The notes under the pieces: model-generated
The model's database searches: none
Told to the model about the DNA's origin: nothing
The model's input: only the letters and a program-made list of their open reading frames with translations
Assembly: GCA_003130845.1 (NCBI GenBank)
Contig: QEXW01000073.1
Coordinates: 1 to 34,624 of the forward strand
DNA from: Anaerolineae bacterium
Lineage (GTDB): Bacteria > Chloroflexota > Anaerolineae > Anaerolineales > Villigracilaceae
Reading direction: 5' to 3'
Length of the DNA: 34,624 nt
Shown here: positions 13,068 to 28,749 of the stretch, one piece after another
How positions within the stretch are numbered: position 1 is the first letter of the stretch
How the letters are laid out: each line of letters begins with the position of its first letter
Made by a program: the position numbers and the translations under genes

Positions 13068-14564
13068 CTACACAATTTCCAGCCTCACCCCAAAGACATC
13101 CTCGAAGAGGGTCTTGCGTTTTTCAAATGACCAGCGCTCCAGCATCATCTCGCCTTCTCCACGCAAAAGAATTTGCCATACGCTGCCGTTCTTTTCAAGG
13201 GTTACATCGCGCAAGCGAGCAGCATGGCTGATTTCAAGCGCATCGGCCAGACGTAAGATGGCACACAGTTTGAGAACCGTCATCCTCTCTTTGGGAGGCA
13301 AAGCGCGAAAGGAATCTTCTTGAACCGATGGAGAGGTTTTGCGGTGAAAGCGTACAATATTCGCCACCACTTCTTGCTGAGGTGGCTCTAGCCCCATCAG
13401 AGGCGAGTGTTTCAAAATGTAGTAGCCATGCCGGTCGTGGTCAATCGTGTTGATGAAATGGCCAATATCGTGTAAGAGCGCGGCGGCTTCTAAAGAAAGG
13501 CGGTCATTTTCATCCAAACCATGCAGAGAAAGGGTTTGGTCAAAAATGCGCCCCGCCAAGCGTGAGACGTGTGTGGCATGTTCGGCATCGAAAGCGTATT
13601 TCTGCCCCAAACGCATGGCAGCGTTAAGCACTTGTTCCCGGCGTGGCAAACGTGGGCCGAGCGCTAACGGAAGCATATCCCACAACACTCCATCTTTAAG
13701 CCCAACCCCCGGAATTTGGATTTCACGCACGCGCGCTTCGCGCGCAATGAGATGGACAACCATGCACGCGGGTAACAAGACATCTGCGCGGTCGGGGCGC
13801 AGGTCAAGTTTTTTGATACGCTCTTCAATGGTCATCTCTGAGAGTTTCTCGATGAGAGCATTTAACTCGTCCAGGGTAATGCGGTCGCTGGTTTCGCGGC
13901 GAAACAGACGTTTACGCAGCAAGCCCATCTCTTCCAGGTTGCCGCCGGTGCCGGCGCACAAATCTACCTTTTCGCCGCCGAGTTCACGGTCAATCCGCCG
14001 TCGCGCCGATTCGGTATATTCGCGCAACAGGTGAATATCCATCAGGCCACCATTTGCGCCAAGCCGCTTGAGCAAGCGCACTGTTCCCATAGGATAACTT
14101 TCAGAGGAGAGAATTTCATCCCCCCGCACAATGGTCACTTCCACGCTGCCGCCGCCGATGTCAATCAGCACTGCCCGCTTACCGGTCAAATCCACCGCTT
14201 TGGAAACTGCCAGGTGAATCAGCCGCGCCTCTTCTTCGCCGCTGATGATTTCGACCTGAATCCCGCTTTGGCGAACGATGCGGTCGAGCAACACTTCGCC
14301 ATTTTCAGCCTCGCGCAAAGCCGAAGTGCCAACCGCGCGTAACTGGCTGACTCCAAATTGGTCGGCAATCGAACGAAAGCGTAAGAAGGCATCTACCGCC
14401 GCTTGCATCATCGACTCGCTCAATTGCCCGCTGGTAAACACATCTTGCCCTAAACGCACCGGCAAACGCGTAGATTCGAGCACTTCCAACTGGCCTCCAC
14501 GCACCGGACGGGCAACTGCCATGCGAATGGCATTCGAGCCAACATCAATTGCGGCGATATTCAT
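13068..14564 (-). CDS. Ppx/GppA phosphatase with C-terminal HD domain
   Basis: Exopolyphosphatase/guanosine pentaphosphatase family protein with the actin-like ATPase fold. The phosphate-1 motif is AAIDVGSNAIRM at residues 4-15, the catalytic Glu region GTSALREAENGE follows, and phosphate-2 is VLIDIGGGSVEVT. The C-terminal part (about 325-480) is an HD-type domain: HATHVSRLAGR, then LLHDIGHFINT with the HD pair and the distal histidines of FHRK. This matches long-form Ppx. The start at 14564 is set by GGAGG 4 nt upstream. The longer frame adds 37 residues without family character. A TACAAT (14618-14623, minus strand) could be the -10 box. The substrate, polyphosphate or pppGpp, cannot be told from sequence. 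Confidence 0.9.
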   Translation of the reverse strand: MNIAAIDVGSNAIRMAVARPVRGGQLEVLESTRLPVRLGQDVFTSGQLSESMMQAAVDAFLRFRSIADQFGVSQLRAVGTSALREAENGEVLLDRIVRQSGIQVEIISGEEEARLIHLAVSKAVDLTGKRAVLIDIGGGSVEVTIVRGDEILSSESYPMGTVRLLKRLGANGGLMDIHLLREYTESARRRIDRELGGEKVDLCAGTGGNLEEMGLLRKRLFRRETSDRITLDELNALIEKLSEMTIEERIKKLDLRPDRADVLLPACMVVHLIAREARVREIQIPGVGLKDGVLWDMLPLALGPRLPRREQVLNAAMRLGQKYAFDAEHATHVSRLAGRIFDQTLSLHGLDENDRLSLEAAALLHDIGHFINTIDHDRHGYYILKHSPLMGLEPPQQEVVANIVRFHRKTSPSVQEDSFRALPPKERMTVLKLCAILRLADALEISHAARLRDVTLEKNGSVWQILLRGEGEMMLERWSFEKRKTLFEDVFGVRLEIV

Positions 14565-14736
14565 AGAGCCTCCATGTCCAAAGTGTACACCCAATTGGGC
14601 CGTTCCAGCATGGAGGAATTGTATCGCGTATGGCTGGGTAGTGTGCCAAAAAAGGTTAGAAGGACTGGTTGTCATTGACCCCTCTTATTTTGGCAGTGGC
14701 GGAAAGCGCCCAGGCGCCATACCTGCTTGTTATAAA

Positions 14737-15513
14737 TTATGACTTCCAATCCCAATCCCCCAAGGTTGGGATAGCACTGTACATGGTTAGGTCGAGTTGA
14801 ATCGGGGTGATGGAGACATAGCCGCTGGCGACTGCGCCCACATCGGTGCCTTCTTCCGGTGTGCCGGTGGGTGAATCGCCGCCAATCCAATAATAGGGCT
14901 TGCCGCGTGGGTCAATCCGTTTATCCAAGCGGTCACGATACACACGCAAGCCCTGACGCGTAATCCGAATCCCCTTGATTTGCTCGATGGGCAAATAGGG
15001 GATGTTCACGTTGAGCAACATACCAGGCGGAAAACGATGTTCACGCACGGTGCTGACCACACGGCGAGCAATTTCAGCAGCAGCCGTGTAATCGAGAGCG
15101 CCAAGGTGATTATCCAGCGAGCCAAGCGAAAAGGCAATGCCAGGGGTATCCCAGATGACCGCTTCCATGGCAGCCGTCACCGTCCCGGAGTAGGTGACAT
15201 CATGCCCCAGGTTGTGCATCGGGTTAATGCCAGAAACCACCAAGTCAATTTTTTCTTCAAAGAAACCCAGCAACGCCAAGGCAACACAGTCTGAAGGGGC
15301 GCCATCGCTTGTAAAAGCCGCAGAACCATCTGCCAAGGTCAAGTCACGCACGCGCAAAGGACGCTCCAGCGTTTTGACATGGCCACTGCCCGACCAGTTG
15401 CGGTCTGGCGCAAGAATGCTCACCTTAACATCAGACAATGAGCGCATAGCCTGCGCCAGCGCCAAGAGACCCGGCGCAGTGACACCATCATCATTCGTAA
15501 CGAGAATATGCAT
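14737..15513 (-). CDS. surE: 5'/3'-nucleotidase SurE
   Basis: Metal-dependent nucleoside 5'/3'-monophosphate phosphatase; family members also cut short polyphosphate. The metal-binding NDDG is at residues 7-10. The serine/asparagine ligands appear in APDRNWSGSGH, and SGINPMHNLGHDVTYSGTV is the family's central motif. The end (EGTDVGAVASGYVSITPI) is also typical. 258 residues is normal. The start at 15513 follows GAGG with about 8-nt spacing. It lies 29 nt downstream of the CBS/GAF gene on the same strand, so the pair is likely one transcript. A 172-nt gap without features separates it from the next minus-strand gene. Confidence 0.95.
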   Translation of the reverse strand: MHILVTNDDGVTAPGLLALAQAMRSLSDVKVSILAPDRNWSGSGHVKTLERPLRVRDLTLADGSAAFTSDGAPSDCVALALLGFFEEKIDLVVSGINPMHNLGHDVTYSGTVTAAMEAVIWDTPGIAFSLGSLDNHLGALDYTAAAEIARRVVSTVREHRFPPGMLLNVNIPYLPIEQIKGIRITRQGLRVYRDRLDKRIDPRGKPYYWIGGDSPTGTPEEGTDVGAVASGYVSITPIQLDLTMYSAIPTLGDWDWKS

Positions 15514-15542
15514 ACAAAAAGCCTCGGATAGGTTTGTTCTGT

Positions 15543-16538
15543 TCAAAACGCACTTTCGGCATCAGCCCATTCTAGCGTCTCGAACGGTGCAAAAAAAATT
15601 GTCTCGTCTGAAAATGTCTTTTCCCTGCGTTTTTGTAACAATAATCTGGTCATACGCTGAGAAAAGGCCTGGCAAGTTTGTTTTTCATCCGAGGTAAAGG
15701 GGCTTTCCACATTCCTTCCAAGCGAGAGAAAGCCCAAGCAAGTGCTCTCTTCGTACAAAAGCGGCACGCCCAGCCACGAAGCCGGCTGACCTAAGCTTTC
15801 CATGCCTTGCCAGGCTGGCACACGGCGCGTATCGGGCAGGTAAATCGCCTGACGGTGCTGCAACATCATTTGATAAATCGCGTTCGACTCGATTTGAGCG
15901 AAATCAAGTGTCGGGTTTTCAACGCCCCACGCCGCGCCAAGTTCCAGCCGGTCGCCACGCACCAACACATACGCTTGATGATAGGGGACAACCTGGGCAA
16001 GCAATTGTAACATGCGCTTTAAGATGCCCCGTTCGTCGGCATCCTGATAAATCAATGCATCGAGTTGGCCCAAACGACCAACGATGTTGCTCAGATTAGA
16101 GACAATTAACGATTGGGCCAAAACGAGCACGGTCAAATCGAGAATGCGAAACATGTCGTTAGAGAGCTGAATCACCACCGGGTCGTACATATCACGCAAC
16201 GGACGCGACAATGCCCGTTGAATTGCTTCATCCACCCGCAAATGACCGGGTAAAGGTTGCACTTGGCTAGACATGGCAGCAGCCAAATGCGCAATCGGCT
16301 TGCGCATGAACAATTCTATCCCATACCGATGCCCTAAGCGCTCAAAAAGTTTCAGACGTGTCAGGAAACCCAGCAATTTGCGATTTTCCACAATTAACAC
16401 GCCCGGCAAATCGGGGTTGTCTTCCAACACCATCACTACATCTTCCGTCAAGGTATACGGTGACACCTGAAAATCATGGGCGGGCAAATCGGCAATACAG
16501 ACGGGTATTTGAGATTCGTCTCGTAGAAATGGCAACAT
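15543..16538 (-). CDS. CBS-like plus GAF domain sensor protein
   Basis: Soluble 331-residue protein without an output domain. Residues about 20-155 look like a CBS-type pair (TEDVVMVLEDNPDLPGVLIVENRKLLGFLTR and the second unit PLPGHLRVDEAIQRALSRP). Residues about 165-310 form a GAF domain (DERGILKRMLQLLAQVVPYHQAYVLVRGD, then WLGVPLLYEESTCLGFLSLGR). It may bind a small ligand and act through a partner. No kinase, cyclase or DNA-binding part is seen. The upstream Shine-Dalgarno is weak, so the start is less certain. It precedes surE by 29 nt. Domain calls are from pattern reading only. Confidence 0.65.
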   Translation of the reverse strand: MLPFLRDESQIPVCIADLPAHDFQVSPYTLTEDVVMVLEDNPDLPGVLIVENRKLLGFLTRLKLFERLGHRYGIELFMRKPIAHLAAAMSSQVQPLPGHLRVDEAIQRALSRPLRDMYDPVVIQLSNDMFRILDLTVLVLAQSLIVSNLSNIVGRLGQLDALIYQDADERGILKRMLQLLAQVVPYHQAYVLVRGDRLELGAAWGVENPTLDFAQIESNAIYQMMLQHRQAIYLPDTRRVPAWQGMESLGQPASWLGVPLLYEESTCLGFLSLGRNVESPFTSDEKQTCQAFSQRMTRLLLQKRREKTFSDETIFFAPFETLEWADAESAF

Positions 16539-16719
16539 AATCGTACCCGATATACTCTCTCAAAAAGGAGAACGTGCAAAGGTAGTTTAACTGCTTGCGA
16601 TTAACATCTGTAAAAATTTTTGTTAACGACCGGAAAAAAACAATTCGTTTACCAGACCTTAATGGGTTGTTCCATGCCAATTAACTTAGGGTGAATACAA
16701 TGCGGATGAGGAGACGAAT

Positions 16720-17748
16720 ATGCCCCAAAACATCTTATTCATCTGCGGGTCGCTTAACCAGACGACCCAAATGCACGCCGTGGCCCAGCACTTAAGCGAC
16801 CACAACTGTTATTTCACCCCATATTATGCCGATGGAATCGAGCATCTCGCAGCCAAAGCCGGATTGCTCGATTTTTGTGTCCTAGGCGGGCGGCATCGGC
16901 GCGATACCCTGCAATACCTGGCCGACCACAAATTACCGATTGATGAGCGCGGCGCAGGTCACAAATACGATATGGTCGTTACCTCCTCCGACCTGATTAT
17001 TCAGAACAACATTCGCGGTAAGCGTTTGATTTTGGTGCAGGAAGGCATCACCGAGCCAGAAGGCAAACTCTACCGGCTATGGAAACTCTTCCCCTTCTTG
17101 CCGCGCTACATTGCCAACACCGCCACCAATGGCCTTTCAAATGCTTATGATATTTTCTGCGTGGCATCCGAAGGCTACCGCGACCACTTCATCCGCAAGG
17201 GCGTGCCGCCGGAAAAAATTGCCGTCACGGGCATTCCCAACTTCGACAACTTGCAGCGCCACCTAAAGAACGACTTCCCCTACCGCGATTTCGTCCTGGT
17301 CGCTACCACGCCTTATCGTGAAACGTATCGCGGCGACGACCGGATGACCTTCCTGCGCCGCTGCGTACAGGCCGCCGAAGGCCGCCCGCTGATTTTCAAA
17401 CTGCATCCCACCGAACACGTCGAGCGCGCCACGCGCGAAATCAAATCGGTGGCGCCCGATGCGCTGGTTCTCACACATGGCAACGTGAATGACATGATTG
17501 CCAACGCCAGCATGGTGATGACCCAGCAATCCACCTGCACCTTCGTCTCACTGGCGCTGGGCAAAGAGACCTACACCTATCTGGATAAGGACGAACTGCG
17601 CCGTCTGATGCCTATCCAAAACGGCGGCGTCTCCGGCGAGCGCATTGCAAAAATCGCCCGCCGCCTGCTGCATACCCCCATGCATATCCTGGAACAAATC
17701 CGCAAGCGTTACCGCCCGCGCCCACGCTGGGAAGCCGATGCCATTTAA
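16720..17748 (+). CDS. GT-B-fold transferase-like protein (glycosyl or glycerophosphotransferase-like)
   Basis: Cytosolic 342-residue protein with the look of a GT-B fold. The N-terminal half starts with a Rossmann strand (NILFICGSLNQTTQMHAVAQHL). The C-terminal half holds LIFKLHPTEHVERA and the segment MIANASMVMTQQSTCTFVSLALGKE. That pattern (K-x-HP-x-E, later S-x-x-x-x-E) resembles CDP-glycerol glycerophosphotransferases and UDP-GlcNAc 2-epimerase-like enzymes. Donor and acceptor are unknown. The ATG has GAGGAGA 5 nt upstream. It is the first gene of a plus-strand run with the two binding-protein genes, 76 nt apart from the next, so cotranscription is possible but not shown. Confidence 0.6.
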   Translation: MPQNILFICGSLNQTTQMHAVAQHLSDHNCYFTPYYADGIEHLAAKAGLLDFCVLGGRHRRDTLQYLADHKLPIDERGAGHKYDMVVTSSDLIIQNNIRGKRLILVQEGITEPEGKLYRLWKLFPFLPRYIANTATNGLSNAYDIFCVASEGYRDHFIRKGVPPEKIAVTGIPNFDNLQRHLKNDFPYRDFVLVATTPYRETYRGDDRMTFLRRCVQAAEGRPLIFKLHPTEHVERATREIKSVAPDALVLTHGNVNDMIANASMVMTQQSTCTFVSLALGKETYTYLDKDELRRLMPIQNGGVSGERIAKIARRLLHTPMHILEQIRKRYRPRPRWEADAI

Positions 17749-17758
17749 AAACAAAGCG

Positions 17759-17773
17759 TTAACAATCTGTTAA
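17759..17773. promoter_or_regulatory. TTAACA-N3-TGTTAA palindrome, possible operator
   Basis: A perfect 6-bp inverted repeat with a 3-nt spacer lies in the 76-nt gap before the substrate-binding protein gene. A related TTAACATCTGT with a later TGTTAA occurs at 16601-16626, in the divergent region upstream of the transferase gene. This could be a regulator site or chance. Confidence 0.25.
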
Positions 17774-17783
17774 GCAACGAAAT

Positions 17784-17811
17784 CCACACCCTATCGTATC
17801 ATCAGGTGTGG
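17784..17811. repeat. 7-bp hairpin before the substrate-binding protein gene
   Basis: CCACACC (17784-17790) and GGTGTGG (17805-17811) can pair around a 14-nt loop. It is just upstream of the ATG at 17825 and has no T tract, so it is not a terminator. It may affect translation of the gene or have no role. Confidence 0.35.
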
Positions 17812-17824
17812 AGAATCGAATTCA

Positions 17825-19033
17825 ATGTACACCCCTCGCATCAACTGGATATTCTTGATTCTTTTTGGACTGGCGGCCATTGGCGTCTTCGTGGCCGCCT
17901 TGCTGCTTCCCCCCTTCCGGGCGGTTGCCTACGCCCCGCTGCGAGAACTCATCATCCCGCCCCCGGCTCCCATCGTTGTGACCGTTCTCTACTCTACCGA
18001 GAAACAGGCCTGGCTAGAGGAAGTTGTTCCGGCCTTCGAGGCGAGCGGAGCCAACGTCAACGGGCATCCGGTCAAAATCCAGATGGAAAAAATGGGGTCG
18101 TGGGAAATCATCAACGCCGTGCTAGATGGCAGCCGCCAGCCGGTCATCATCAGCCCGGCCAGCATGTTGCAGATTGCCGCGCTTCAGGATTCTTCCACAA
18201 TTCAATTTGGGCGCAGCCTGGTCATCCCAGCCGATGCAATCAACTGCCGACCCGTCTTGCGCACACCGCTGGTGCTGGTGGCATGGAAGGAGCGGGCCGA
18301 CGCGCTGTGGGGGCAGCAGCCGGGCGCATCGTTATGGCCCAACATCCACGATGCGCTCGTCAACCCCAAGGGTTGGGCCGCTTTTAATCAGCCCGATTGG
18401 GGCTACGTCAAATTCGGTCACACCGACCCGCTCAAATCCAACAGCGGATTCATGACCATCCTCTTGATGACCTACGGCTATCACGGCAAGACCTCCGGCC
18501 TGACCGCCGCCGATATTCTAAACGACAGCGACTACCAGAAGTGGTTCCTGGAAATCGAAGCGAGCATTGGGCAGTTCGAGCATAGCACCGGGCCGCTCAT
18601 GCAAAAGATGATAACCTATGGCCCCAGCGTTTACGACTTCGTGGCCGTCTATGAATCCACCGCCATTGAACAAGCCGAAAATGCCGTAGGGCGCTATGGC
18701 GAGTTGCGCGTTTATTACCCGCCCGCCACGCTGTGGAGCGACCATCCCTTCTGCGTCTTGAACGCCGATTGGGTCACGCTCGACCATCGCAAAGCCGCCA
18801 TCTTGTTCCTCGATTACCTGGTGAGCAAACCCGTTCAGGAAATTGCCCTGCTCAAATACGGCTACCGTCCGGTAGATACTTCTATTCCACTCGAACAACC
18901 CGGCTCGCCCTTCGACCGCTACGCTGCCAACGGCTTCCGCGCCGATTTGTCCTTCCTGCCCGAAGCGCAGGTCCCGCCCGGCAGCGCGCTCAATACCCTG
19001 CGTGATTTTTGGGCGAGGAATGTAAATCGGTAA
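17825..19033 (+). CDS. Membrane-anchored extracellular substrate-binding protein
   Basis: 402-residue protein with one N-terminal membrane helix (about residues 8-30, IFLILFGLAAIGVFVAALLL) and no lipobox cysteine, so it is anchored with its body outside. The body is a type-2 periplasmic-binding fold of the ModA/sulfate-binding kind, starting VVTVLYSTEKQAWLEEVVPAFE. It includes VKFGHTDPLKSNSGFMTI and ends with a fold-closing GYRPVDTSIPLEQPG. The same landmarks recur in the next protein, so the two are paralogs. No permease or ATPase gene is beside it, which argues against a normal importer role. The ligand is unknown. Confidence 0.8.
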   Translation: MYTPRINWIFLILFGLAAIGVFVAALLLPPFRAVAYAPLRELIIPPPAPIVVTVLYSTEKQAWLEEVVPAFEASGANVNGHPVKIQMEKMGSWEIINAVLDGSRQPVIISPASMLQIAALQDSSTIQFGRSLVIPADAINCRPVLRTPLVLVAWKERADALWGQQPGASLWPNIHDALVNPKGWAAFNQPDWGYVKFGHTDPLKSNSGFMTILLMTYGYHGKTSGLTAADILNDSDYQKWFLEIEASIGQFEHSTGPLMQKMITYGPSVYDFVAVYESTAIEQAENAVGRYGELRVYYPPATLWSDHPFCVLNADWVTLDHRKAAILFLDYLVSKPVQEIALLKYGYRPVDTSIPLEQPGSPFDRYAANGFRADLSFLPEAQVPPGSALNTLRDFWARNVNR

Positions 19034-19049
19034 TTGGTAATTGGTAATT
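19029..19049 (+). repeat. Three tandem GGTAATT units at the stop codon of the binding-protein gene
   Basis: GGTAATT is repeated three times and includes the TAA stop of the upstream gene (19031-19033). A CCAATTAC at 19082-19089 can pair back to it, giving a weak stem across the gap before the lipoprotein gene. No promoter is evident. Confidence 0.5.
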
Positions 19050-19104
19050 CGTAACGCGCTCCAACTACTGTTTGCGATTGACCAATTACTAAATTGGAGA
19101 AACT

Positions 19105-20781
19105 ATGCGCAACACTCTCTATCTTTTATTCTCTCTCTTAGTCATCCTCTCCCTGGCTCTCTCGGCCTGCGGGCAAATCCAAGGCCTGCTTCCGGGCGGG
19201 AGCGTAACGGTCAGTATCGTCTATGGCTCAGAAAAGAAGGAGTGGCTAGAGCCGCTCGTAGCGCAGTTCAACGCGGCGGGTAACAAAACCGCTGAGGGCA
19301 AGTTGATTGTCATCGAAGCAACCCCTATGGGCTCGATTGAATCGGTGCGCGGCATCCTCGAAGGCGCGCTCCAGCCAACGGTCTGGAGCCCGGCCTCGTC
19401 CGTTTATATCCCGGTCGCCAACGCCGAATGGCGTAAATTGCATGGGGAAGACCTGGTAACAGGCAACCCCAACGACCTGGTCCTTAGCCCGGTGGTGATT
19501 GCCATGTGGCAGCCGATGGCGCAAGCCCTGGGCTGGCCCGATAAAGCCATCGGCTGGGCCGATATTGCCGCGCTGGCCACCTCCGAGGAAGGCTGGAGCG
19601 CCTACGGCCACCCGGAATGGGGCGAGTTCAAGTTTGGTCACACCCACCCCGCTTACAGTAACAGCGGCATCGTCTCCATCATCGCCGAAGCCTACGCCGG
19701 CGCAGGAAAACAGCGCGGCCTGACCGAAGCCGACCTGGACGACCCCAAAGTACGGGACTTGATGGCAGCGGTCGAAAAGAGCATCATCCACTACGGCACC
19801 AGCACCGGCTTCTTCGCCGAGCGCATGTTCGAGCGCGGACCATCGTACCTGAGCGCAGCCGTTTTATATGAAAACCTGGTGGTGGCGCAGGAAACCAAAC
19901 GCCTAAACGGGCAATCTTCCCAAATCCCGGTCGTGGCAATTTACCCCAAAGAAGGCACGTTCTGGACGAATAACCCCTACGTGGTGGTAAACGCGCCCTG
20001 GGTCACGGCAGAACAGCGCGAAGCGGCGGGCATCTTCGAGGCCTTCCTGCTCGACCGGCCCCAACAGTTGAAAGCCCTGGAATACGGCTTCCGCCCGGCC
20101 GACCCCAGCATCCCACTCACCGCCCCGCTCGATTCCCAACACGGCATTGACATCACCCAGCCCAAGACCATTCTAGAGATTCCTAGCGCAGCGGTGATAG
20201 ATAAAATTCAAACCCTGTGGCGCGAGACGAAAAAACCGGTGGACCTGGTGGTGGTGATGGACATTTCCGGCAGTATGCGCGGCGACAAAATTACCACGGC
20301 CCGCGCCAGTTTGCTGGAATTCGTCAAGAAATTGGATGACCGTGACCGCCTGCAAATCATCCTGTTCAGTTCCAAAATTTCCACCCTCACGCCGCTCACC
20401 CCACTGGGGCCGAAGCGCCAGCAAGTGTTGAACAGCGTGGCCGGCATTTTTGAGCAGGGTGATACCAAACTCTACGACGCCACCCTGGCCGCCTACCAAG
20501 ATTTGGCCGCCAACGGCAACCCTGACCATATTCGCGCCATTGTAATCTTGAGCGACGGTGCAGATACGGCTTCCAATCAAACGCTGGATGAAGTGATGAG
20601 CCAAATCAACGCGGCCGCCGGCGAAGGGGGCAACGCCATCAAGATTTTCACCATTGCTTTCGGCAGCGACGCAGATGAAAACGTGCTAAAACAAATTGCC
20701 GAACCCACCGGCGGCAAACAATACAAAAGTTCGCCGGAAAATATCCAAAAAATCTACGACGAAATCGCCACGTTCTTCTAA
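19105..20781 (+). CDS. Substrate-binding and VWA domain lipoprotein
   Basis: 558-residue surface lipoprotein. The signal peptide ends in the lipobox LSAC with the lipidated Cys22. Residues about 33-345 form a type-2 substrate-binding domain paralogous to the preceding protein (VSIVYGSEKKEWLEPLVAQF; FKFGHTHPAYSNSGIVSI; GFRPADPSIPL). Residues about 378-555 are a von Willebrand factor A domain with a complete metal-ion site: DISGS (Asp386, Ser388, Ser390), Thr454 in GDTKLYDAT and Asp484 in LSDGADT. Such VWA domains bind protein partners through a divalent metal. RefSeq uses a name like this for similar fusions, but no function is established to my knowledge. Cotranscription with the neighbours is likely. 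Confidence 0.9.
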   Translation: MRNTLYLLFSLLVILSLALSACGQIQGLLPGGSVTVSIVYGSEKKEWLEPLVAQFNAAGNKTAEGKLIVIEATPMGSIESVRGILEGALQPTVWSPASSVYIPVANAEWRKLHGEDLVTGNPNDLVLSPVVIAMWQPMAQALGWPDKAIGWADIAALATSEEGWSAYGHPEWGEFKFGHTHPAYSNSGIVSIIAEAYAGAGKQRGLTEADLDDPKVRDLMAAVEKSIIHYGTSTGFFAERMFERGPSYLSAAVLYENLVVAQETKRLNGQSSQIPVVAIYPKEGTFWTNNPYVVVNAPWVTAEQREAAGIFEAFLLDRPQQLKALEYGFRPADPSIPLTAPLDSQHGIDITQPKTILEIPSAAVIDKIQTLWRETKKPVDLVVVMDISGSMRGDKITTARASLLEFVKKLDDRDRLQIILFSSKISTLTPLTPLGPKRQQVLNSVAGIFEQGDTKLYDATLAAYQDLAANGNPDHIRAIVILSDGADTASNQTLDEVMSQINAAAGEGGNAIKIFTIAFGSDADENVLKQIAEPTGGKQYKSSPENIQKIYDEIATFF

Positions 20782-20791
20782 TTCTCCCTCA

Positions 20792-20816
20792 CCCCCTCTC
20801 CTCCGGGGAGAGGGGG
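20792..20816. repeat. REP-like GC-rich hairpin
   Basis: CCCCCTCTCC (20792-20801) pairs perfectly with GGAGAGGGGG (20807-20816) around a 5-nt loop, between the VWA lipoprotein gene and the coiled-coil gene. There is no T tract. A similar CCTCTCCC-ACC-GGGAGAGG hairpin occurs at 28770-28788. It may protect mRNA ends within the operon. Confidence 0.6.
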
Positions 20817-20832
20817 AACAACGCTAGCAATT

Positions 20833-21564
20833 ATGCCCCGCTCTCCACTCTTTCTCGCCTTGCTCAACCCCGTCAACCTGGCCATGCTGGCGCTGACGGC
20901 TGCCGCCGGTCTGTGTTCGGCCTGGTGGCTGGCACCAATTGGCTTCGTCCTCTGGCTGGTGATGGTCATCCTCATCGCCCGCGACCCCGGCCTGCAAATG
21001 ACCTTCACCCGCCAGAACCGTCAGCCGCTGGCCCAGCGCTATCAATTTCGATTTGACCGTTTGGAACGAGCCCGGTTTTCGGTCTTCAACACGCTTTCAC
21101 AATCCAGCCCACAACTGCGCCGCGCGCTGGAACCGGTGGAACTGGCACTCGATGAACTCGTCGAACACGCGTATCAACTCTGCCTGCGCATGAGCGCGTT
21201 GGATAACAATCTGGCTGTCCAGCAAATCAGCAGCAATTTCAACGAGGATATCGCCAAACTAGAGAAAAGCATTGCCGAAACCAGCGACCCAACCGCACGC
21301 CGCGAGTTTGAAGCCGCTTTACAATCGCTGCAAACTCGTCAAGCCCAGTTGAAAGAAATCAGCACCCTGCTCTCCCGGTTTGAAGCGCAACTGACCGGCA
21401 CCATCAGCGCCGTAGATGGCGTAGTGACCGGGGTGGTCAGCCTGAAAGGACGCAGCCCGCAGTTCGCCGCTGAAAAAATCCCAGCTTTGCTGCAAATCCT
21501 GCAAACAGAACAAGACGAATTGACGCAATTTGACCGTCAACTTGAGACATCCTCCATTTTGTAA
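20833..21564 (+). CDS. Two-helix membrane protein with cytosolic coiled-coil
   Basis: 243-residue protein not matched to a known family. Two hydrophobic helices lie at about residues 8-28 and 32-50 with a short turn between them, so the N- and C-termini are on the same side. The rest is charged and helical, with a heptad-like coiled-coil around 105-190 (NFNEDIAKLEKSIAET and LQSLQTRQAQLKEISTLLSRFEAQL). It lies 51 nt after the VWA lipoprotein gene on the same strand. In position and form it resembles small membrane partners seen near toxic-anion-resistance (TelA/XpaC-like) genes, but this is a loose comparison. The Shine-Dalgarno is weak, so the start at 20833 is tentative. Confidence 0.65.
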   Translation: MPRSPLFLALLNPVNLAMLALTAAAGLCSAWWLAPIGFVLWLVMVILIARDPGLQMTFTRQNRQPLAQRYQFRFDRLERARFSVFNTLSQSSPQLRRALEPVELALDELVEHAYQLCLRMSALDNNLAVQQISSNFNEDIAKLEKSIAETSDPTARREFEAALQSLQTRQAQLKEISTLLSRFEAQLTGTISAVDGVVTGVVSLKGRSPQFAAEKIPALLQILQTEQDELTQFDRQLETSSIL

Positions 21565-21589
21565 CCTGCACAATACGAGCCACCCGCCA

Positions 21590-21661
21590 GTTGTTTTTGG
21601 GACGCGCAAATTTTCCAAGATTTCTTCGGAAAACGCGCTTTTTTGTCCGCGTTTCTCTACA
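21590..21661 (-). repeat. Dispersed intergenic repeat, copy C (inverted)
   Basis: Read on the minus strand this gives AGAGAAACGCGGACAA, then GCGCGTTTTCCGAAGAAA, GGAAAATTTGCGCG and TCCCAAAAACA. It aligns with copy A (7780-7858) with a few changes and a deletion near the end. It lies in the 362-nt gap before tatA. Confidence 0.65.
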
Positions 21662-21926
21662 CCCAATCTTGACCCAAGTTGCCACCTTGCAAAATTCGCA
21701 CGGGTCTTAAGGCAACGTCGCAGAGACGCCAAGAAAAGCATGAGAATCTTGGCATCTTAGCGCTGTTGGATTCACAAAGCCCACCCCAAAGCGATTCAAG
21801 AACCAAAGGGAGCCACTTGAGCATTTTAAAACTGTCCAGCGGCTCGAACAAAGACAAGAGGGGGAGAACATTTTCGGGTAAAATCAGGGCATTCCACTCC
21901 TACCAGCCCCACAAAAGGAGACTCGC
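21662..21926. other. Gene-free stretch upstream of tatA with a short hairpin
   Basis: Holds an imperfect stem GACGCCAAGA (21725-21734) with TCTTGGCATC (21747-21756) in a run of the 'cgcagagacgccaag' type often seen between bacterial genes. A TAAAAT at 21879-21884 could be the tatA -10 box, with no convincing -35. No coding sequence with a ribosome-binding site was found. Confidence 0.45.
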
Positions 21927-22097
21927 ATGCCCAATTTCGGCCCAACCGAACTGATTATCATCCTCATTATCGTCATCCTGCTCTTTGGCGTTGGACGCAT
22001 TGGCAAAATTGCCGGGGAGCTTGGCAGCGCCATTCGCAACTTCCGCGAATCGCTCAAAGGCGAAGAAGAAAAAAAAGAGACTGAAAAGAAAGAATAA
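21927..22097 (+). CDS. tatA: Sec-independent protein translocase subunit TatA
   Basis: 56-residue TatA/E-type protein, pore-forming component of the twin-arginine pathway that exports folded proteins across the inner membrane. The N-terminus FGPTELIIILIIVILLFG gives the short transmembrane helix with a polar Glu8. The FG hinge is followed by the amphipathic helix GRIGKIAGELGSAIRNFRESL, and a Glu/Lys-rich tail ends the protein. AAAAGGAG lies 6 nt before the ATG. It is only 36 nt from pgl, so the two may share a transcript. No tatC is in the window. The gene is easy to miss because of its length. Confidence 0.92.
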   Translation: MPNFGPTELIIILIIVILLFGVGRIGKIAGELGSAIRNFRESLKGEEEKKETEKKE

Positions 22098-22133
22098 CGG
22101 TTTCATCATTTTGTGCTGCTCCCCTCCATCGTC

Positions 22134-22844
22134 ATGCAGCCTGTTCTCGAAATCTTCCCCACCCCTAACGCACTGGTTGATTACGCTGCTCGCTTGTTCG
22201 CGCAAATGGCAGAAGCCGCGCCGAAGCGCTTCAGCGTGGCGCTCTCCGGGGGCAGCACGCCGCGCGCGCTGTATGAACGGCTGACCGCGCCAGACCTGGC
22301 CAAGCGCATCCCCTGGCGCAAGGTTCACTTGTTTTGGGGCGATGAGCGCTGCGTCCCTCCAGAACATCCCGATAGCAATTACGGCCTGGCTGCCAGCACG
22401 CTGCTGGCGCGCATTCGCCTGCCGGTTGAAAACATTCACCGCATACGGGGTGAACTGCCCGCGGCCGAAGCCGCCCGCCTGTACGAAGCAGAATTGCGCG
22501 CCTTCTTTGGCGAGATACCGGCCTTTGACCTGGTTTTCCTGGGGATGGGCGAAGACGGTCACACCGCCTCGCTCTTTCCGGGTTCGCCCGCCCTGGCCGA
22601 ATCCGTGCGCTGGGCGATAGAGGTGGAACATACCGCCCCGCCGCCCCCCCTCATCTCGCGGGTGACCCTGACCTTTGGAGTGTTAAACGCCGCCCGCCGG
22701 GTGATTTTCCTGGTGAGCGGCGCATCGAAAGCCGAAATGTTTGCACAAGTTTGGCGCGGAGCCGATTTCCCGGCCGCTCACATCCGCCCTGGCAAAGGGG
22801 AAGTGCTGTGGCTGGTAGACCAGGCCGCCGCGGCAAGGTTGTAA
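22134..22844 (+). CDS. pgl: 6-phosphogluconolactonase
   Basis: Cytosolic hydrolase of 6-phosphogluconolactone, second step of the oxidative pentose phosphate pathway. The family (DevB/NagB-like) motifs are FSVALSGGSTPRALYERL near the start, WGDERCVPPEHPDSNYGLA in the middle and FLGMGEDGHTASLFPGSP in the second half. 236 residues is normal. The open frame also allows a GTG at 22113, but ATG at 22134 gives the usual N-terminus (VLEIFPTPNALVDYAA). Neither has a good Shine-Dalgarno sequence, and coupling to tatA is possible. It faces zwf tail to tail with only 3 nt between the stop codons and no terminator hairpin, so the two transcripts probably overlap. Confidence 0.93.
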   Translation: MQPVLEIFPTPNALVDYAARLFAQMAEAAPKRFSVALSGGSTPRALYERLTAPDLAKRIPWRKVHLFWGDERCVPPEHPDSNYGLAASTLLARIRLPVENIHRIRGELPAAEAARLYEAELRAFFGEIPAFDLVFLGMGEDGHTASLFPGSPALAESVRWAIEVEHTAPPPPLISRVTLTFGVLNAARRVIFLVSGASKAEMFAQVWRGADFPAAHIRPGKGEVLWLVDQAAAARL

Positions 22845-22847
22845 CGA

Positions 22848-24305
22848 CTATTCTCTGCCCAGCCGCCAGCGATGACCGGCGCGGGCGAGCAGCGCATCGG
22901 CCTCGGCCGGACCCCACGAACCGCGCGGGTATGTCACCAGCGGGGGCGCAGCCGGGGTTTGCCAGCCTTCCAGGATGGGGTCAATCAATTTCCAGGAGGC
23001 TTCGATTCCATCCGAACGGGTGAACAGCGAGGCGTCGCCATCCAGGGCTTCGAGCAGAAGCCGCTCATAGGCTTCGGGAATGCTGCGGTCATTGAAAGAA
23101 TCGCGATAGTGAAAATCCATATCCACCGGGCGCATCTCCTGGTCAGAATCGGGGACTTTGGCCTGGAAGCGCAGGTGAATGCCTTCATCCGGCTGAATGG
23201 TGAGCGCCAGGATGTTAGGGCTGAAATCGGCCCCTGGCGGCAGGTGGAACATCAGGTGGGGCGGGCGCTGAAATTCGATGATGATTTCCGAAATTTTGCG
23301 CCGCAAGGCCTTGCCAGAACGCAGGTAAAACGGCACGCCCTGCCAGCGCCAGTTATCTATGAAGAGTTTAAGCGCGGCATAGGTGGGGGTTTGAGAATCG
23401 GGCGCTGTGCCTTCCGTTTCGCGGTAGCCCGCGTATTGCGCCCGGACGGTATCTTCCAGCGCAATCGGGCGAATGCTCTTAAGCACTTTGACCGTTTCGT
23501 TGCGCACCGCATCGGCTTCAAAGGAAGCGGGCGGCTCCATCGCCACCAGCGAGAGCAGTTGCAACAGGTGATTCTGGAACATATCGCGCAAGACGCCGGA
23601 AGTGTCGTAATAGCCAGCGCGGGAGCCAATATCTACGCTCTCGGCCACCGTGATTTGCACATTGCTCACATAGCGGCGGTTCCAGACCGGCTCAAAGATG
23701 GTGTTGGCGAAACGAAAGAACAAGATATTTTGCGAGGTTTCTTTGCCCAAATAGTGGTCAATGCGATAGATTTGCCGCTCAGCGAAAGACGCCTGTAGGG
23801 CATGCGTCAGTTCGCGCGCCGATTGTAAATCGTGTCCGAAGGGTTTTTCCACGATAATGCGCCGCCACGCGCCGTAATCTTCGTCATCTTGCGCCATGCC
23901 GGCTGCGCCCAAATGCCCGGCCACCGCCACGTAATACTCCGGCGCGGTGGCCAGATAGTACAGCCGGTTGGCAGGGCCGCCTTCCAGCCCGCGCAGGAAG
24001 TTCTCCAGGCGAGAGAAGTCTTCAGCCTGGTCGAGATTGCCCTGAAAGTAGTGAATGCGCGGGGCGAATTGTTCCCACACCGCCGGGTCGAAGGTCTCCG
24101 GGCTGAATTGCACCACGCCCTCGCGCAAACGGGCGCGAAAGGCGTCATCGGAATACGGGCGGCGGGCAAACCCGACCACGTTCGCGCATTCCGAAAGCCG
24201 CCCTTTGCGGAAGTTGTTATACAGCGCCGGAATCAGTTTCCGCCAGGTCAGGTCACCGGAAGCGCCAAAAATGACAATGCTGGTAGATTGGCAGGTTTCG
24301 CTCAT
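22848..24305 (-). CDS. zwf: Glucose-6-phosphate 1-dehydrogenase
   Basis: Cytosolic first enzyme of the oxidative pentose phosphate pathway, making NADPH and 6-phosphogluconolactone. The nucleotide-binding [17 protein letters not shown] is at residues 14-30, EKPFGHD at 153-159 and the active-site RIDHYLGKE at 181-189. 485 residues is the usual length. Its ATG overlaps the TGA of the upstream gnd gene by 4 nt (24302-24305), which indicates translational coupling in one operon. The lactonase gene lies on the opposite strand just past its end. Confidence 0.97.
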
Positions 24306-25216
24306 CGTTCAACCTTCTTGACGGCGTGTCCACCGAACTGATTGCGCATGGCGGCCAGCAATTTGGCAGCGAAACTCTCCTCCTGACGGCTGGCGAATCG
24401 CTGCTGAAGCGAGAGCGTGATGACCGGCGCGGGTATATCTAAATCTACGGCTTCAAAAACTGTCCAGCGGCCTTCTCCAGAATCGGGAACGTAACCGGCA
24501 ATTTCGCTTAATTCCTGGTCAGCGGCCAGGGCATTGGCGGTCAAGTCCAACAGCCAGGAGCGTACCACCGAGCCATGCCGCCAGATTTCGGCAATCTGGT
24601 GCAGGTCAAGGGCATAGTCGCGCTTGGCGTGCAGGATTTCGAAGCCTTCGGCGTAGGCCTGCATGAGACCGTATTCAATGCCGTTGTGAATCATCTTGAC
24701 GAAATGCCCGGCGCCCACGCCGCCCACGTGTCCCCAGCCCTTATCCGGCGCGGGGGCCAGGGTCTCGAAAATCGGTTTCAGACGGGAAACGTCTTCCGCT
24801 TCGCCGCCGACCATCAGGCTGTAGCCTTCTTTCAGCCCCCACACCCCACCACTCGTGCCGACATCCACATAGTGGATGCCTTTCTCTTTCAGCGCGGCGG
24901 CGCGGCGGATGTCATCTTTGTAGAAGGTGTTACCGCCGTCAATAATCGTATCGCCCAGGGCGAACAACCCGGCCAGTTCTGCGATGACGGCTTCGGTGGC
25001 GTCTCCGGCCGGCACCATCACCCAGGCGGCGCGCGGCGCGGGCAGGGTGGCGGCTAGTTCTGGCAGCGTGCGGACGGCGGTCAGGCCAATTTCCGCCTGG
25101 AGCGATTCGGCCAGGCTGAAATCGCGGTCGAACCCGACCACGCGATGCCCGCCTCGCACCAGGCGGCGCGCCATGTTGGCGCCCATTTTTCCTAATCCAA
25201 TCAATGCAATGTCCAT
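24302..25216 (-). CDS. gnd: 6-phosphogluconate dehydrogenase, decarboxylating, short form
   Basis: Third step of the oxidative pentose phosphate pathway, giving ribulose-5-phosphate and CO2. The Rossmann motif [11 protein letters not shown] lies at residues 6-16. Substrate-binding [19 protein letters not shown] and the catalytic region [18 protein letters not shown] are clear. At 304 residues it is the short form found in many Gram-positives and Chloroflexota, lacking the long C-terminal helical domain of the 470-residue enzyme. The second strand ends VVGFDRDF; an acidic residue there favours NAD+ over NADP+, which is an inference. AGGAGACG precedes the ATG and a good -10 box lies about 60 nt upstream. 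Confidence 0.93.
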
Positions 25217-25402: not shown

Positions 25403-26449
25403 TCAACCCATCGAACGTTGAAAACGCTTGAGCAGGTCTTCCCAACCTTTTTTCAGTTCCAATGATTTCAGCCGCCACGTACCGATGATGCCATACGGGA
25501 TGAACAAGACGAACAGGACATAGACCGCCCCGTTGATGAAACTGGCGCTCTCGCCGATATAGCGGCGCAGGCCAAAATCAAGAGCGCGGAAGACAATGGC
25601 CCCGAGGAAGGCCCCGCTCAACGTGCCAACCCCGCCAATTAGGACAATTAGCAGCGCGGTGACGGTAAACGCCAGGCTGGCGGTGTTGGGGCTGACAATC
25701 GGCTGGTAGATGGTGTGTAAAAATCCGGCCAGAGCGGCGGTGATGGAAGAAAGCAGCAGCGCGGCAAACTTAAAGGTGAACACGTTGTAGCCGAGCATTT
25801 TGGCGCGGTCTTCATTTTCGCGAATGGCAACGCACACCCGACCGGTGGGGGAATCAACAAAGCGCTTGTAAAGCAGGTAGAACAAGATGAAAACCGTCAT
25901 GGCCACAAAATACAAACGCAGACGCTCCACAGCAGGGTTGATGAAATCCGGGATGATGACGCCCTGCAAGCCCACATCCGCGCCGGTGTAGGGGCCGAGT
26001 TCGGTGGACATGACGATGAGATGGAGAACGCTCGCCATACCCAGCGTCACCAACGCAAAGGTGATGCCCTTGACGCGCGGCAAGACGATGCCCACCAGTA
26101 CAGCCTGGATGAAAGCCGCCGCGAGAACCAACAGAAAGGTTTGTCCAAGATTCAAACCAAAACTCTTGATGGCGATGCCAGAGGCATACGCGCCCACCGC
26201 GAAAAACATGCTGTGACCAAACGACAAAAGACCGGTGATGCCGAAAATCAGGTCGTAACTGAGGGCAAACATCGCCAGGATGAAGACTTCGATGGCAAGC
26301 CCTTGCATAAACTTACTGGTTCCGCTTCCATTTGCCCAAACCACCGCCGGGGATGCGCCTTCGAACAGGCCAACCAGGAAGGGGAACAGGACCAGCGCAA
26401 GCAGGGTGAGCAGCGAAGCCTGATGTTGGCGGAAAAAGGATTTGGTCAT
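25403..26449 (-). CDS. livM: Branched-chain amino acid-type ABC transporter permease LivM
   Basis: Inner-membrane permease of a LIV-I/HAAT-family importer. It has about nine hydrophobic segments. The family region LLSFGHSMFFAVGAYASGIA (about residues 73-92) and the coupling-helix block VAIRENEDRAKMLGYNVFTFKFAALLLSS (about 210-240) are clear. LIGGVGTLSGAFLGAIVF is also typical. 348 residues is usual for LivM. It lies 6 nt after livH and is the last gene before the terminator. The substrate of such systems ranges from amino acids to aromatic and short organic acids or urea, so the name gives the family, not the substrate. Confidence 0.92.
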   Translation of the reverse strand: MTKSFFRQHQASLLTLLALVLFPFLVGLFEGASPAVVWANGSGTSKFMQGLAIEVFILAMFALSYDLIFGITGLLSFGHSMFFAVGAYASGIAIKSFGLNLGQTFLLVLAAAFIQAVLVGIVLPRVKGITFALVTLGMASVLHLIVMSTELGPYTGADVGLQGVIIPDFINPAVERLRLYFVAMTVFILFYLLYKRFVDSPTGRVCVAIRENEDRAKMLGYNVFTFKFAALLLSSITAALAGFLHTIYQPIVSPNTASLAFTVTALLIVLIGGVGTLSGAFLGAIVFRALDFGLRRYIGESASFINGAVYVLFVLFIPYGIIGTWRLKSLELKKGWEDLLKRFQRSMG

Positions 26450-26455
26450 GGCGGT

Positions 26456-28012
26456 TTATTCCTTCTTTCCCAACAAGCCATTGGGCAGCAACAGCAGGAT
26501 GATGACCATCAGGAAGATGGTCGAAGCCGGGACGATAGGCGGGGTGGGTTTGAAAACAATCTCGGTGAAGGGGATGGCAATGCCAATCTGCCCGTACTTA
26601 ATCATGAATTGCTGAATCAACCCCACGATGACCGAACCGAGCGCCGCGCCGGGATAACTGGTTAGCCCGCCAATGGCCAGCGCCACCAGCGCGTTGAGCA
26701 TGACGGATTCGCCCATGTGATAGGAGAGACCCAGGGAAGGCGCGGCCAGTGCCCCGCCCAGGGCCGCCAACCCCACGCCAAGCGCAAAGACCAAGGTGAA
26801 GACCTGCCGGACGTTGATTCCCAACGCTTCGACCATCTCGCTATCTTGCACGCCGGCGCGGATAATCATGCCCAGGCGCGAGCGTTTGAGCAACAGCCAG
26901 ACGGCCACCAGGACAACCAGCCCCACCAGCGGAATAAAAATCTCGTTATAGACGCGCACGCGCCCGCCCAAAACCAGGATGGTGGCGCAGTTGAGTTGCC
27001 ACCAGGCGGCCAAGGTCGTTGCCGGGCAGCCCGGCCCCGAACCGGTGAACAAGGCCGGTTTGGGCATGATGAATTCGGGCCGCCCCCACACGGCACGCAC
27101 GATTTCGACGCCAATCACGCTCATGCCCAGCGTCAGCATGATTTGGTAGATGTGCCGAACGTAGAGCGGACGAATCAGGGTGACTTCCATCAACCCGCCC
27201 AACCCCATGCCCGCCAGCACGGCCACCACCACCGAAACCAGGAAAAGCCAGTTGGTGTTTAGCCCCACCAGCCAAGCAGTCAGCGGTTCGTTGAAAATCA
27301 GCGCCAGGATGCCCACCAGTGATAACACGGCAAAAGGCGCAAAATGTCGCCAGGTCAATTGTTGCGGCGCGGTGGGGGGATGAGCAAGCCAGACCATCGA
27401 AAACGCGGCAAGCAGACTGCCAGCCAATAATCCGATGACCGCCAGCGCGGGAGAAAGGCCCTCGAAAACGGCCGCTTCGGGAACCAGGCGCGTCCCCTGG
27501 TCGGCCATGAAGGCGTAGGTGCCGGGGCTTTGGGCAAACACCTCCACATCCCAAACCGCAATCGGATAACGGGCGAGAGTCATGAACAGGATGACCAGCG
27601 AGAGCGCCATCCCGCCCCAAGGCAGGATGCGTCCCATCGCTCCCGAAAGCCGAATGCGAGCAGCAACAAACGCCCAGACGCCCTGCAGCGTGAATCCGCT
27701 CAGGAGCAGAGCCAGGGGCGTCAGCAGGTCAACGAACGTATCGGGCCGGACGAAGACCGTCCAGGCGATGTAGGCCCCAATCATATAGAGCGTGCCATGC
27801 GCCAGGTTGAGGACGTGCATCAGGCCAAAGATGAGCGAAAAGCCAGAAGCGACCAGGAAGGTGAGCGAACCGACCGCCAGTCCGCGCAAGAAGGTGATGA
27901 CGAAATCCTTGCTCTCCATACCCTGGGCGGCGGCAATCAACAGACTGACCAACACGCCAAGCGTAAGGTAGAGAACCAAATTTTTACGGAGGGTCACTTT
28001 GAAATTGTCCAT
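26456..28012 (-). CDS. livH: Branched-chain amino acid-type ABC transporter permease LivH with large insertion
   Basis: Second permease of the importer. The N-terminal landmark is GFSLIFGLMHVLNLAHGTLYMIGAY (about residues 57-81). The C-terminal half is standard: LIRPLYVRHIYQIMLTLG, then MIIRAGVQDSEMVEALGINV as the ATPase-coupling loop and LVALAIGGLTSYPGAALGSVIVG. At 518 residues it is far longer than the roughly 290-300 of LivH. The excess is an insertion at about residues 90-255 with several extra hydrophobic helices, plus about 30 residues more after VRAVWGRPEF. The frame is open throughout with no sign of a frameshift. It follows livF by 13 nt with AAGGAAGAGAG as ribosome-binding site. Confidence 0.88.
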   Translation of the reverse strand: MDNFKVTLRKNLVLYLTLGVLVSLLIAAAQGMESKDFVITFLRGLAVGSLTFLVASGFSLIFGLMHVLNLAHGTLYMIGAYIAWTVFVRPDTFVDLLTPLALLLSGFTLQGVWAFVAARIRLSGAMGRILPWGGMALSLVILFMTLARYPIAVWDVEVFAQSPGTYAFMADQGTRLVPEAAVFEGLSPALAVIGLLAGSLLAAFSMVWLAHPPTAPQQLTWRHFAPFAVLSLVGILALIFNEPLTAWLVGLNTNWLFLVSVVVAVLAGMGLGGLMEVTLIRPLYVRHIYQIMLTLGMSVIGVEIVRAVWGRPEFIMPKPALFTGSGPGCPATTLAAWWQLNCATILVLGGRVRVYNEIFIPLVGLVVLVAVWLLLKRSRLGMIIRAGVQDSEMVEALGINVRQVFTLVFALGVGLAALGGALAAPSLGLSYHMGESVMLNALVALAIGGLTSYPGAALGSVIVGLIQQFMIKYGQIGIAIPFTEIVFKPTPPIVPASTIFLMVIILLLLPNGLLGKKE

Positions 28013-28025
28013 CTCTCTTCCTTCG

Positions 28026-28730
28026 TTAGGCCGCGCCCAGGTAGCGGTGAATGGTGGCCTGGTCTTGGACCAATTCAGCCATCAGTCCATGCCTGACCGA
28101 ACGGCCTTCTTCGATGATGACGTAATACTCGGCCAGTTGACTGGCGACCAGGAAGTTCTGTTCGACAAGAACAATGGTGGCGTTTTTCGAGAGTTCGCGA
28201 ATGGCGGCCATGACGTTTTCGATAATCACCGGGGCCAGCCCTTCCGAGGGTTCGTCAATCAGCAGCAGAGAATTATCGGCAACCAGGGCGCGGGCAATGG
28301 CCAGCATTTGCTGCTGTCCGCCGGAGAGATTCGCGCCAGGCAAGGCAATCAGCCGCTTTAGGTCAGGAAACAGGCCAAAGATGAAGTCTTGCTTGCGGGC
28401 GTAATCGCCTTTTTTGCGCTCGGCGATTTTCAGGTTTTCTTCCACGCTCAAATCGCGAAAAATGGCGCGGTGTTCGGGGACAAAGCCAATGCCGCGTGCG
28501 GCGATGTCGAAGGAACGCATGCCGTTGATTTCGCGCCCCTCAAAAACAATTTTTCCCTGACGCGGCGGCAGCAACCCCAAAATCGTCTTGAGCGTGGTGG
28601 TTTTGCCAGCCCCGTTGCGCCCCAGCAAAGCGGTGATGCTGCCGCGCGGTATGCTCAGACTCACCCCTTGTAAGATGTGATATTGCCCAATGAAGGTGTG
28701 AACGGATTGAACGTCGAGAATCGTGTCCAT
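28026..28730 (-). CDS. livF: ABC transporter ATP-binding protein LivF
   Basis: Cytosolic ATPase subunit of the importer. Walker A GRNGAGKTT, the signature LSGGQQQMLAIARAL and Walker B LLLIDEPSEGL are intact, and the C-terminus (HRYLGAA) is the LivF type. From the ATG at 28730 it has 234 residues, the usual size. An upstream GTG at 28751 is also in frame but lies on the edge of an inverted-repeat element, so the ATG is preferred although its Shine-Dalgarno is weak. A 187-nt repeat-bearing gap separates it from livG, unlike the tight spacing to livH. Confidence 0.94.
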   Translation of the reverse strand: MDTILDVQSVHTFIGQYHILQGVSLSIPRGSITALLGRNGAGKTTTLKTILGLLPPRQGKIVFEGREINGMRSFDIAARGIGFVPEHRAIFRDLSVEENLKIAERKKGDYARKQDFIFGLFPDLKRLIALPGANLSGGQQQMLAIARALVADNSLLLIDEPSEGLAPVIIENVMAAIRELSKNATIVLVEQNFLVASQLAEYYVIIEEGRSVRHGLMAELVQDQATIHRYLGAA

Positions 28731-28749
28731 GATTTTTTCTTTTTGGGTC

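Follow-up and report, generated by a model that had tools for sequence, protein, structure and literature searches.

Three adjoining genes at positions 17825 to 21564 of contig QEXW01000073.1 from an Anaerolineae bacterium (assembly GCA_003130845.1), whose 34,624 nucleotides are here called the window, are suggested to encode an extracytoplasmic ligand sensor that signals inwards, not an importer, and that in several lineages signals to PspA-type membrane maintenance. We hold this reading tentatively and place it slightly short of an even chance. The trio consists of a membrane-anchored solute-binding protein (SBP; 17825..19033, 402 aa), a lipoprotein with a solute-binding and a VWA domain (SBP-VWA; 19105..20781, 558 aa) and a membrane-hairpin protein with a helical domain (CC; 20833..21564, 243 aa), all on the plus strand, and its recurrence is far beyond chance.

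A preliminary description of this DNA had grouped the trio with a preceding transferase gene, and the four plus-strand open reading frames were indeed found together (16720-17748, 17825-19033, 19105-20781 and 20833-21564, with intergenic gaps of 76, 71 and 51 bases in that order). In agreement with the same description, no permease or ATPase of the ATP-binding cassette (ABC) type is present among the window genes from 13068 to 25216. Scans for promoters and terminators gave no excess over shuffled sequences (three promoter-like signals versus 2.6 expected, and six terminator-like signals versus 8.8). The combination had also been called undescribed; no account of SBP, SBP-VWA and CC together was found in the literature searched, where subscription papers and preprints were mostly outside reach, and the claim is limited to that literature.

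Both SBP and SBP-VWA match the Pfam family SBP_bac_11 (53.3 and 50.2 bits, respectively; cut-off 25), which places both in the solute-binding protein superfamily, and the two are paralogues with 36% identity over residues 30-341 of SBP-VWA. SBP starts with a hydrophobic helix and no lipobox; among 59 relatives an N-terminal hydrophobic stretch is present in 57, with a lipobox pattern in addition in 10. SBP-VWA starts with the lipobox LSAC, a lipoprotein signal, and the corresponding alignment column holds Cys in 50 of 56 relatives (strict lipobox pattern in 40 of 56). Its VWA domain (73.9 bits, cut-off 23.8) possesses the complete DxSxS, T, D motif of a metal ion-dependent adhesion site (MIDAS), conserved among the 56 aligned relatives at D386 (56), S388 (56), S390 (55), T454 (55) and D484 (56). 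Sequence, Pfam and MIDAS conservation thus bear out one helix-anchored binding protein and one lipoprotein ending in a VWA domain with a full metal site, as originally described.

The motif S[NT]SG, conserved in both paralogues and read by us as a pocket-type motif, is kept in all 59 SBP relatives, and the SBP half of SBP-VWA has many invariant residues, with the pocket-type and metal-site positions near-invariant across 56 sequences. In the AlphaFold model of SBP-VWA (mean predicted local distance difference test score, pLDDT, 92.5; predicted template modelling score, pTM, 0.87), the fold of the SBP half is similar to those of proteins that bind sulfate, sugar phosphates or iron, and its matches are to distant binding proteins only. 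The nearest matches of the VWA half are extracellular VWAs with a binding role, among them the alpha2-delta VWA in both sequence and fold. The likeness of the SBP folds, together with the conserved S[NT]SG, makes a small and probably anionic ligand likely.

For CC, the Pfam scan gave no family above cut-off. Its AlphaFold model (mean pLDDT 84.9) contains helices at residues 13-28 and 33-49, which by sequence would form a membrane hairpin, followed by a helical bundle at 68-239, a domain of about 170 residues according to model and alignment. The protein had been taken for a two-helix coiled coil; the hairpin of two helices stands, but the bundle that follows makes CC more than a two-helix protein.

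The family was traced by a contig scan with SBP-VWA, from which the best 80 of 150 confirmed relatives were taken as loci (43 Chloroflexota, 37 other), and by searches of 101 kin genomes and 251 Chloroflexota genomes. The loci are labelled Chloroflexota, Verrucomicrobiota, Acidobacteriota, Planctomycetota, Myxococcota, Lentisphaerota and Pseudomonadota; being drawn from the best 80 of 150 relatives, these phyla are no census, and most of the loci are from metagenome bins, where mislabelling is possible (e.g., L068 and L086). SBP is present in 61 of the 80 loci and a CC-type gene in 53, and the gaps are operon-like, with medians of 32.5 bases from SBP to SBP-VWA (n = 40) and 11 bases from SBP-VWA to CC (n = 38). 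In nine of the 27 loci without CC, the locus ends within about 1 kb past SBP-VWA.

The linkage is also seen when the search starts from CC. Strong CC matches (E ≤ 2e-64) occur in 22 of the 251 Chloroflexota genomes, every one of which encodes an SBP or SBP-VWA of the family on the contig of CC, no more than about 2 kb away. One further genome (G266) has two CC matches, weak and not adjacent. Since SBP-family genes are found in 42 of the 251 genomes, CC is narrower than the SBP family. Among the 101 kin genomes, a strong CC match (E ≤ 2e-56) is present in 10 and stands beside SBP-VWA in every one of them, with weak matches in two (G017 and G079). An SBP-VWA match covering parts of both halves was detected in 17 kin genomes, seven of them without a strong CC match, and divergent CC genes lie near SBP-VWA in G088 and G082 (25.8 and 14.0 bits, respectively). 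Of the four genes first grouped together, the recurring set is SBP, SBP-VWA and CC.

In G034, G004 and G010, the position of CC beside SBP-VWA is occupied by short proteins of some 120 residues (L113 3483-3839, L114 6575-6949 and L115 2329-2685, respectively; all minus strand), whose N-terminus, judged by eye, resembles a hydrophobic hairpin. No short hairpin or CC-like frame is among the open reading frames listed near SBP-VWA in G053, and in G065 the gene is shortened about 0.5 kb from the contig end. A tree of 56 SBP-VWA sequences unites the window and 23 of 28 Chloroflexota rows in one supported group, places five Chloroflexota rows in a second deep group and shows the other phyla mixed. 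The second clade, from Chloroflexales-type bins, has 36-40% identity to the SBP-VWA of the window and sometimes shares a locus with the main type (L063 4629-6269, L064 277-1914, L066 4922-6562, L106 3915-5570 and L109 7953-9575).

PspA is encoded in 10 of the 80 loci, as counted with a profile from the c6 cluster that may miss other PspA types, and an AAA+ ATPase gene accompanies it in nine of these ten. The Verrucomicrobiota/Acidobacteriota-type operon has the order SBP-VWA, SBP, PspA, CC-type gene and AAA+ ATPase (L067, L075, L080, L087 and L110). Variants are found in L068, L074, L082, L086 and L100, where SBP and CC are missing from L082 and L100, and AAA+ from L074. The operon PspA is the sole PF04012 match of the genome in eight of ten cases, the completeness of the assemblies not being given; that of L075 scores 36.3 bits (cut-off 33.9). 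Profile comparison identifies the CC-type gene of these operons as a homologue of CC (95.9%, E = 5e-9). The negative comparison, CC with the c6 PspA alignment, gave 0.5%, and fold searches with CC returned only common helical bundles, so that CC as a PspA relative is not supported. Within Chloroflexota, G088 combines SBP-VWA, PspA (41.9 bits, the only PspA of the genome) and CC, while G295 has PspA (47.3 bits), SBP, SBP-VWA and CC. In G198, a PspA-like protein (24.8 bits, below the 33.9 cut-off) is followed by SBP, SBP-VWA and a 254-residue protein with N-terminal hydrophobic helices as judged by eye.

The most direct sign of inward signalling by an anchored SBP comes from family f40, in which the anchored SBP, encoded beside SBP-VWA, is fused to an N-terminal Ser/Thr kinase, followed by a hydrophobic helix and then by the SBP domain. 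This fusion, with an N-terminal zinc ribbon, is found in L188 (8874-11294, minus strand) and likewise in L205-L209; it scores 141.6 bits for Pkinase and 57.2 bits for SBP_bac_11, and its hydrophobic stretch peaks from residue 408. The frame is intact (790-818 aa) in six of the eight f40 genomes, which represent two genera, but broken in G262 and truncated by a contig end in G345. The G291 fusion was negative in the motif check and is accepted from its 818-residue frame with kinase and SBP matches in one register. No kinase domain was detected by Pfam in the window SBP. The recurrence of SBP, SBP-VWA and CC, the f40 fusion and the presence of PspA in the operons of several lineages all back the ligand-sensing surface complex that had been proposed for this DNA.

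In the mechanism that we suggest, binding of a small, probably anionic ligand outside the membrane would bring about closure of the SBP domain in SBP, in SBP-VWA or in both. Closure would alter the cis pair of SBP and SBP-VWA, and the metal site of the VWA domain would grip an acidic residue of a partner, a recruitment also surmised in the preliminary description. The CC hairpin, or the kinase in f40, could then relay the change to the cytoplasm, where PspA would in several lineages be recruited for membrane maintenance or remodelling and be reset by the AAA+ ATPase. In the genome of the window, the output may be the helical domain of CC itself or another partner. Phosphorus compounds are perhaps the likeliest ligand class in Chloroflexota.

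Several observations weigh against this sensor. The genome of the window has no PspA/IM30 (PF04012) match at E ≤ 0.001, so a PspA output cannot apply as such there, and its AAA+ ATPase matches are two, both partial and at domain level. PspA matches occur in five of the 101 kin genomes, and besides G088 these have no full-length SBP-VWA. In 18 of the 80 loci no CC-type gene was detected despite more than about 1 kb after SBP-VWA, an absence that is either real or one of detection, and in seven of the 22 Chloroflexota genomes with strong matches CC adjoins SBP and the SBP-VWA match is on another contig. The fold search with CC returned no significant match (best E = 0.038), and its helical domain is probably cytoplasmic, as judged from an excess of K/R over D/E after helix 2 that, at five versus two, is a weak basis. 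Moreover, pst importer genes are near the trio in L046, L050, L054 and L062, and a phosphonate-type importer, comprising an ATPase and two multi-helix proteins, in L040, L043, L048 and L065, so that importer genes occur at no fewer than eight of the 43 Chloroflexota loci. The preliminary description had itself named a permease/ATPase pair coregulated with the binding proteins as a finding that would count against it, and the nearby importers go part of the way towards this; still, the module holds no importer, and those nearby stand outside the trio and have binding proteins of their own.

The same genes bear on a rival explanation, in which the SBPs work with the Pho system (Pst, PhoB/PhoR and phosphonate uptake) to detect or capture phosphate, phosphonates or phosphate esters, and which we consider unlikely but not negligible. 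PstS is found in the flanks of seven of the 43 Chloroflexota loci, compared with 0.23 expected from the PstS counts of the kin genomes (142 matches in 61 genomes by our own sum) and an assumed genome size of 3.8 Mb. PstS, PstC, SurE, Ppx or PPK are near 11 of these loci versus one of 40 control regions, which come from two genomes (G018 and G097) and whose positive case overlaps a previously fetched Pho block (Fisher p = 0.0025; p = 0.014 if four related loci are treated as one). Curated models confirmed PstS, PstC and PstB in examples, although the PstB of L050 (322.7 bits) is under its cut-off of 343.2. The best model for the phosphonate-type ATPase is PhnT2 (445 bits in L040, just under the cut-off of 457.7), and the 2-aminoethylphosphonate transaminase PhnW is encoded in L040 (492.9 bits, cut-off 296), with genes of the same cluster in L058 and L065. 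These phosphonate-type genes lie at L040 7888-14235, L043 13709-16518, L048 2253-5043, L065 13358-17308 and L058 5322-6461. With phosphonate genes added, a post hoc category chosen after the loci were seen, the count rises to 16 of 43 loci versus one of 40 controls (p = 5e-5); the best scores in control regions were 270 bits for the ATPase and 121 bits for PhnW, compared with at least 393 and at least 544 bits in module loci. A PF01663 phosphodiesterase/nucleotide pyrophosphatase follows SBP-VWA and CC in L101 (5286-7172), L102 (2612-4366) and L105 (9619-12096), and the trio of the window is itself flanked by Ppx and SurE. However, the nearby importers bring binding proteins of their own, namely PstS and, in L048, a lipobox-bearing protein that accompanies the phosphonate-type set and is probably its binding protein, and hence the module is not the missing part of an importer. 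The phosphonate-type sets are separated from the module by 1.6-6 kb, and all but one of the four run on the other strand. The kin genomes searched for both show no PstS on the contig of the module, and the PstS model TIGR02136 matches neither SBP, its matches in the genome of the window being on contigs C120 and C116 and none on the window contig C48. Outside Chloroflexota, phosphorus genes are near two of 37 loci, with the C-P (carbon-phosphorus) lyase-type ATPases of L084 (252 bits, under cut-offs) as a possible third. The assumptions behind the expected value and the two-genome origin of the controls also count against this explanation.

Ordinary binding proteins for ABC import, with a permease encoded nearby or elsewhere, would agree with the SBP fold and with the importer genes that flank at least eight Chloroflexota loci, but this is very improbable given that the trio has a paralogous pair of SBPs, fused in part to VWA or kinase domains and constantly partnered by CC, and that those importers have separate binding proteins. 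The nearest ABC set identified in the window (25403-31434, minus strand) is of the Liv/urea type and has its own Peripla_BP_6, and import through it was rejected because of this binding protein and the opposite strand. A distinctly unlikely, though better supported, alternative is a structural scaffold, whose SBP folds would bind a protein or polymer instead of solutes and help CC and PspA to keep a membrane-maintenance complex in place at the cell surface. The co-occurrence with CC and in places PspA, the distant matches of the SBP half and the fact that VWA metal sites usually bind proteins are in line with such a role, whereas the complete retention of S[NT]SG and the large number of positions that are invariant within the SBP half of SBP-VWA speak against it, and the kinase fusion indicates signalling. 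Finally, the similarity of the VWA half to extracellular binding VWAs could mean that the lipoprotein binds an extracellular partner in adhesion or coat assembly, with the SBPs as spacers; the links to CC and to PspA or kinase point inwards, however, and the 66 downstream neighbours show no sortase or pilus family in their 25 most frequent families, upstream neighbours being outside the scan, which leaves an adhesin highly improbable.

Beyond the ligand sensor of this window, the trio may represent a cross-phylum class of ligand-gated membrane-maintenance receptors, in which a pair of SBP and SBP-VWA faces outwards, a coiled-coil adaptor with a hairpin crosses the membrane, and the outputs on the inner side are interchangeable, being PspA together with the AAA+ ATPase, a Ser/Thr kinase or CC by itself; this we regard as possible, if doubtful. 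In that case a specific ligand from outside, and not membrane damage only, would switch part of the PspA/ESCRT-III machinery of bacteria, with phosphorus status as a conceivable trigger in Chloroflexota. If the sensor reading itself is correct, it would name a surface receptor for PspA systems in which the operon holds the only PspA match of the genome, and the trigger of PspA outside the well-studied phyla would become testable in terms of ligand, face and partner. The SBP-VWA proteins of several phyla would also gain a function-based interpretation, and in Chloroflexota the upkeep of the membrane might prove to be linked to the supply of phosphorus.

The first of the four frames (16720..17748, plus strand, 342 aa) encodes a glycosyltransferase-like protein and is a neighbour, not a part, of the module. 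Its epimerase/glycosyltransferase-type matches in Pfam and NCBIfam are all sub-threshold (e.g., Epimerase_2, 26.4 bits, cut-off 30.6), so that 'transferase' is a weak label. Contrary to its initial inclusion in the module, the gene is present in 17 of the 101 kin genomes and adjoins the trio in two, the window and its close relative G009; in G065 it is about 5 kb away. The four-gene unit was rejected, as in kin the transferase belongs to a phosphate/polyphosphate block. This block is exemplified by L140, with PhoU, PstB, two PstC/A-type permeases, PstS, SurE, a PHP protein, the transferase, Ppx, CHAD and polyphosphate kinase, and parts of it are seen in L141, L143, L144, L146 and L147. The transferase lies within 8 kb of PstS in four of the 16 transferase genomes searched for both, compared with about 0.18 expected (computed with 17). 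The divergent left flank of the window, likewise outside the module, encodes a Ppx/GppA phosphatase (13068-14675), SurE (14737-15546) and a GAF/CBS protein (15543-16538), all on the minus strand, and these belong to the same block as the transferase. In L041, Ppx and GAF/CBS, two of the three left-flank genes, directly precede the trio, and the transferase is not there. The transferase may be an unrecognised Pho-linked enzyme.

No family dominates the 66 downstream neighbours (at least 100 residues), the counts being four for response regulators and three each for GPP34, PF01663 and acyltransferases. A cluster of GPP34 (Golgi phosphoprotein 3) genes is located within 1 kb of the trio in L042, L047, L048 and L050, and an acyltransferase cluster adjoins or is near it in L037, L039, L043, L058 and L065. 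A defence-system reading was rejected, since in PADLOC the first three window proteins have no match and CC scores 13.5 bits; the AAA+ protein of L075 matches IetA at 32.1 bits, in its AAA part only.

Among known systems, bacterial PspA with a double AAA+ ATPase has been described in phage shock protein (PSP) systems, as have operons of PspA/Snf7 and AAA+ that include a PBPB-OmpA binding protein (Ravi et al. 2024, PMC11237479); 'vWA' and 'Verrucomicrob-' are absent from the main text of that paper. The trio family resembles PSP systems in that 9 of the 80 fetched operons combine PspA with an AAA+ ATPase, and the window differs from them in that its genome has no PspA match. In L193 (3164-4798), an NMT1 protein (28.5 bits, over its cut-off) is encoded between CC and SBP-VWA; its C-terminus matches OmpA below threshold (23.0 bits, cut-off 27.2), and it may tie the trio family to the PBPB-OmpA operons (PMC11237479). 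The f40 fusion of kinase, hydrophobic helix and SBP resembles receptor Ser/Thr kinases with extracellular sensor domains (PknB-like), from which the window SBP differs by having no kinase domain. VWA proteins also occur in the stress contexts of TerY/TelA-type systems; a TelA/Ter link was rejected here, as no TelA (PF05816) is present in the genome of the window. Like the trio family, the calcium-channel alpha2-delta/VWA-Cache proteins join an extracellular VWA domain to a small-ligand-binding domain, although the family of the window is bacterial and has SBP in place of Cache. In alpha2-delta the MIDAS grips a membrane partner, and this serves as the working analogy for the VWA domain of the trio.

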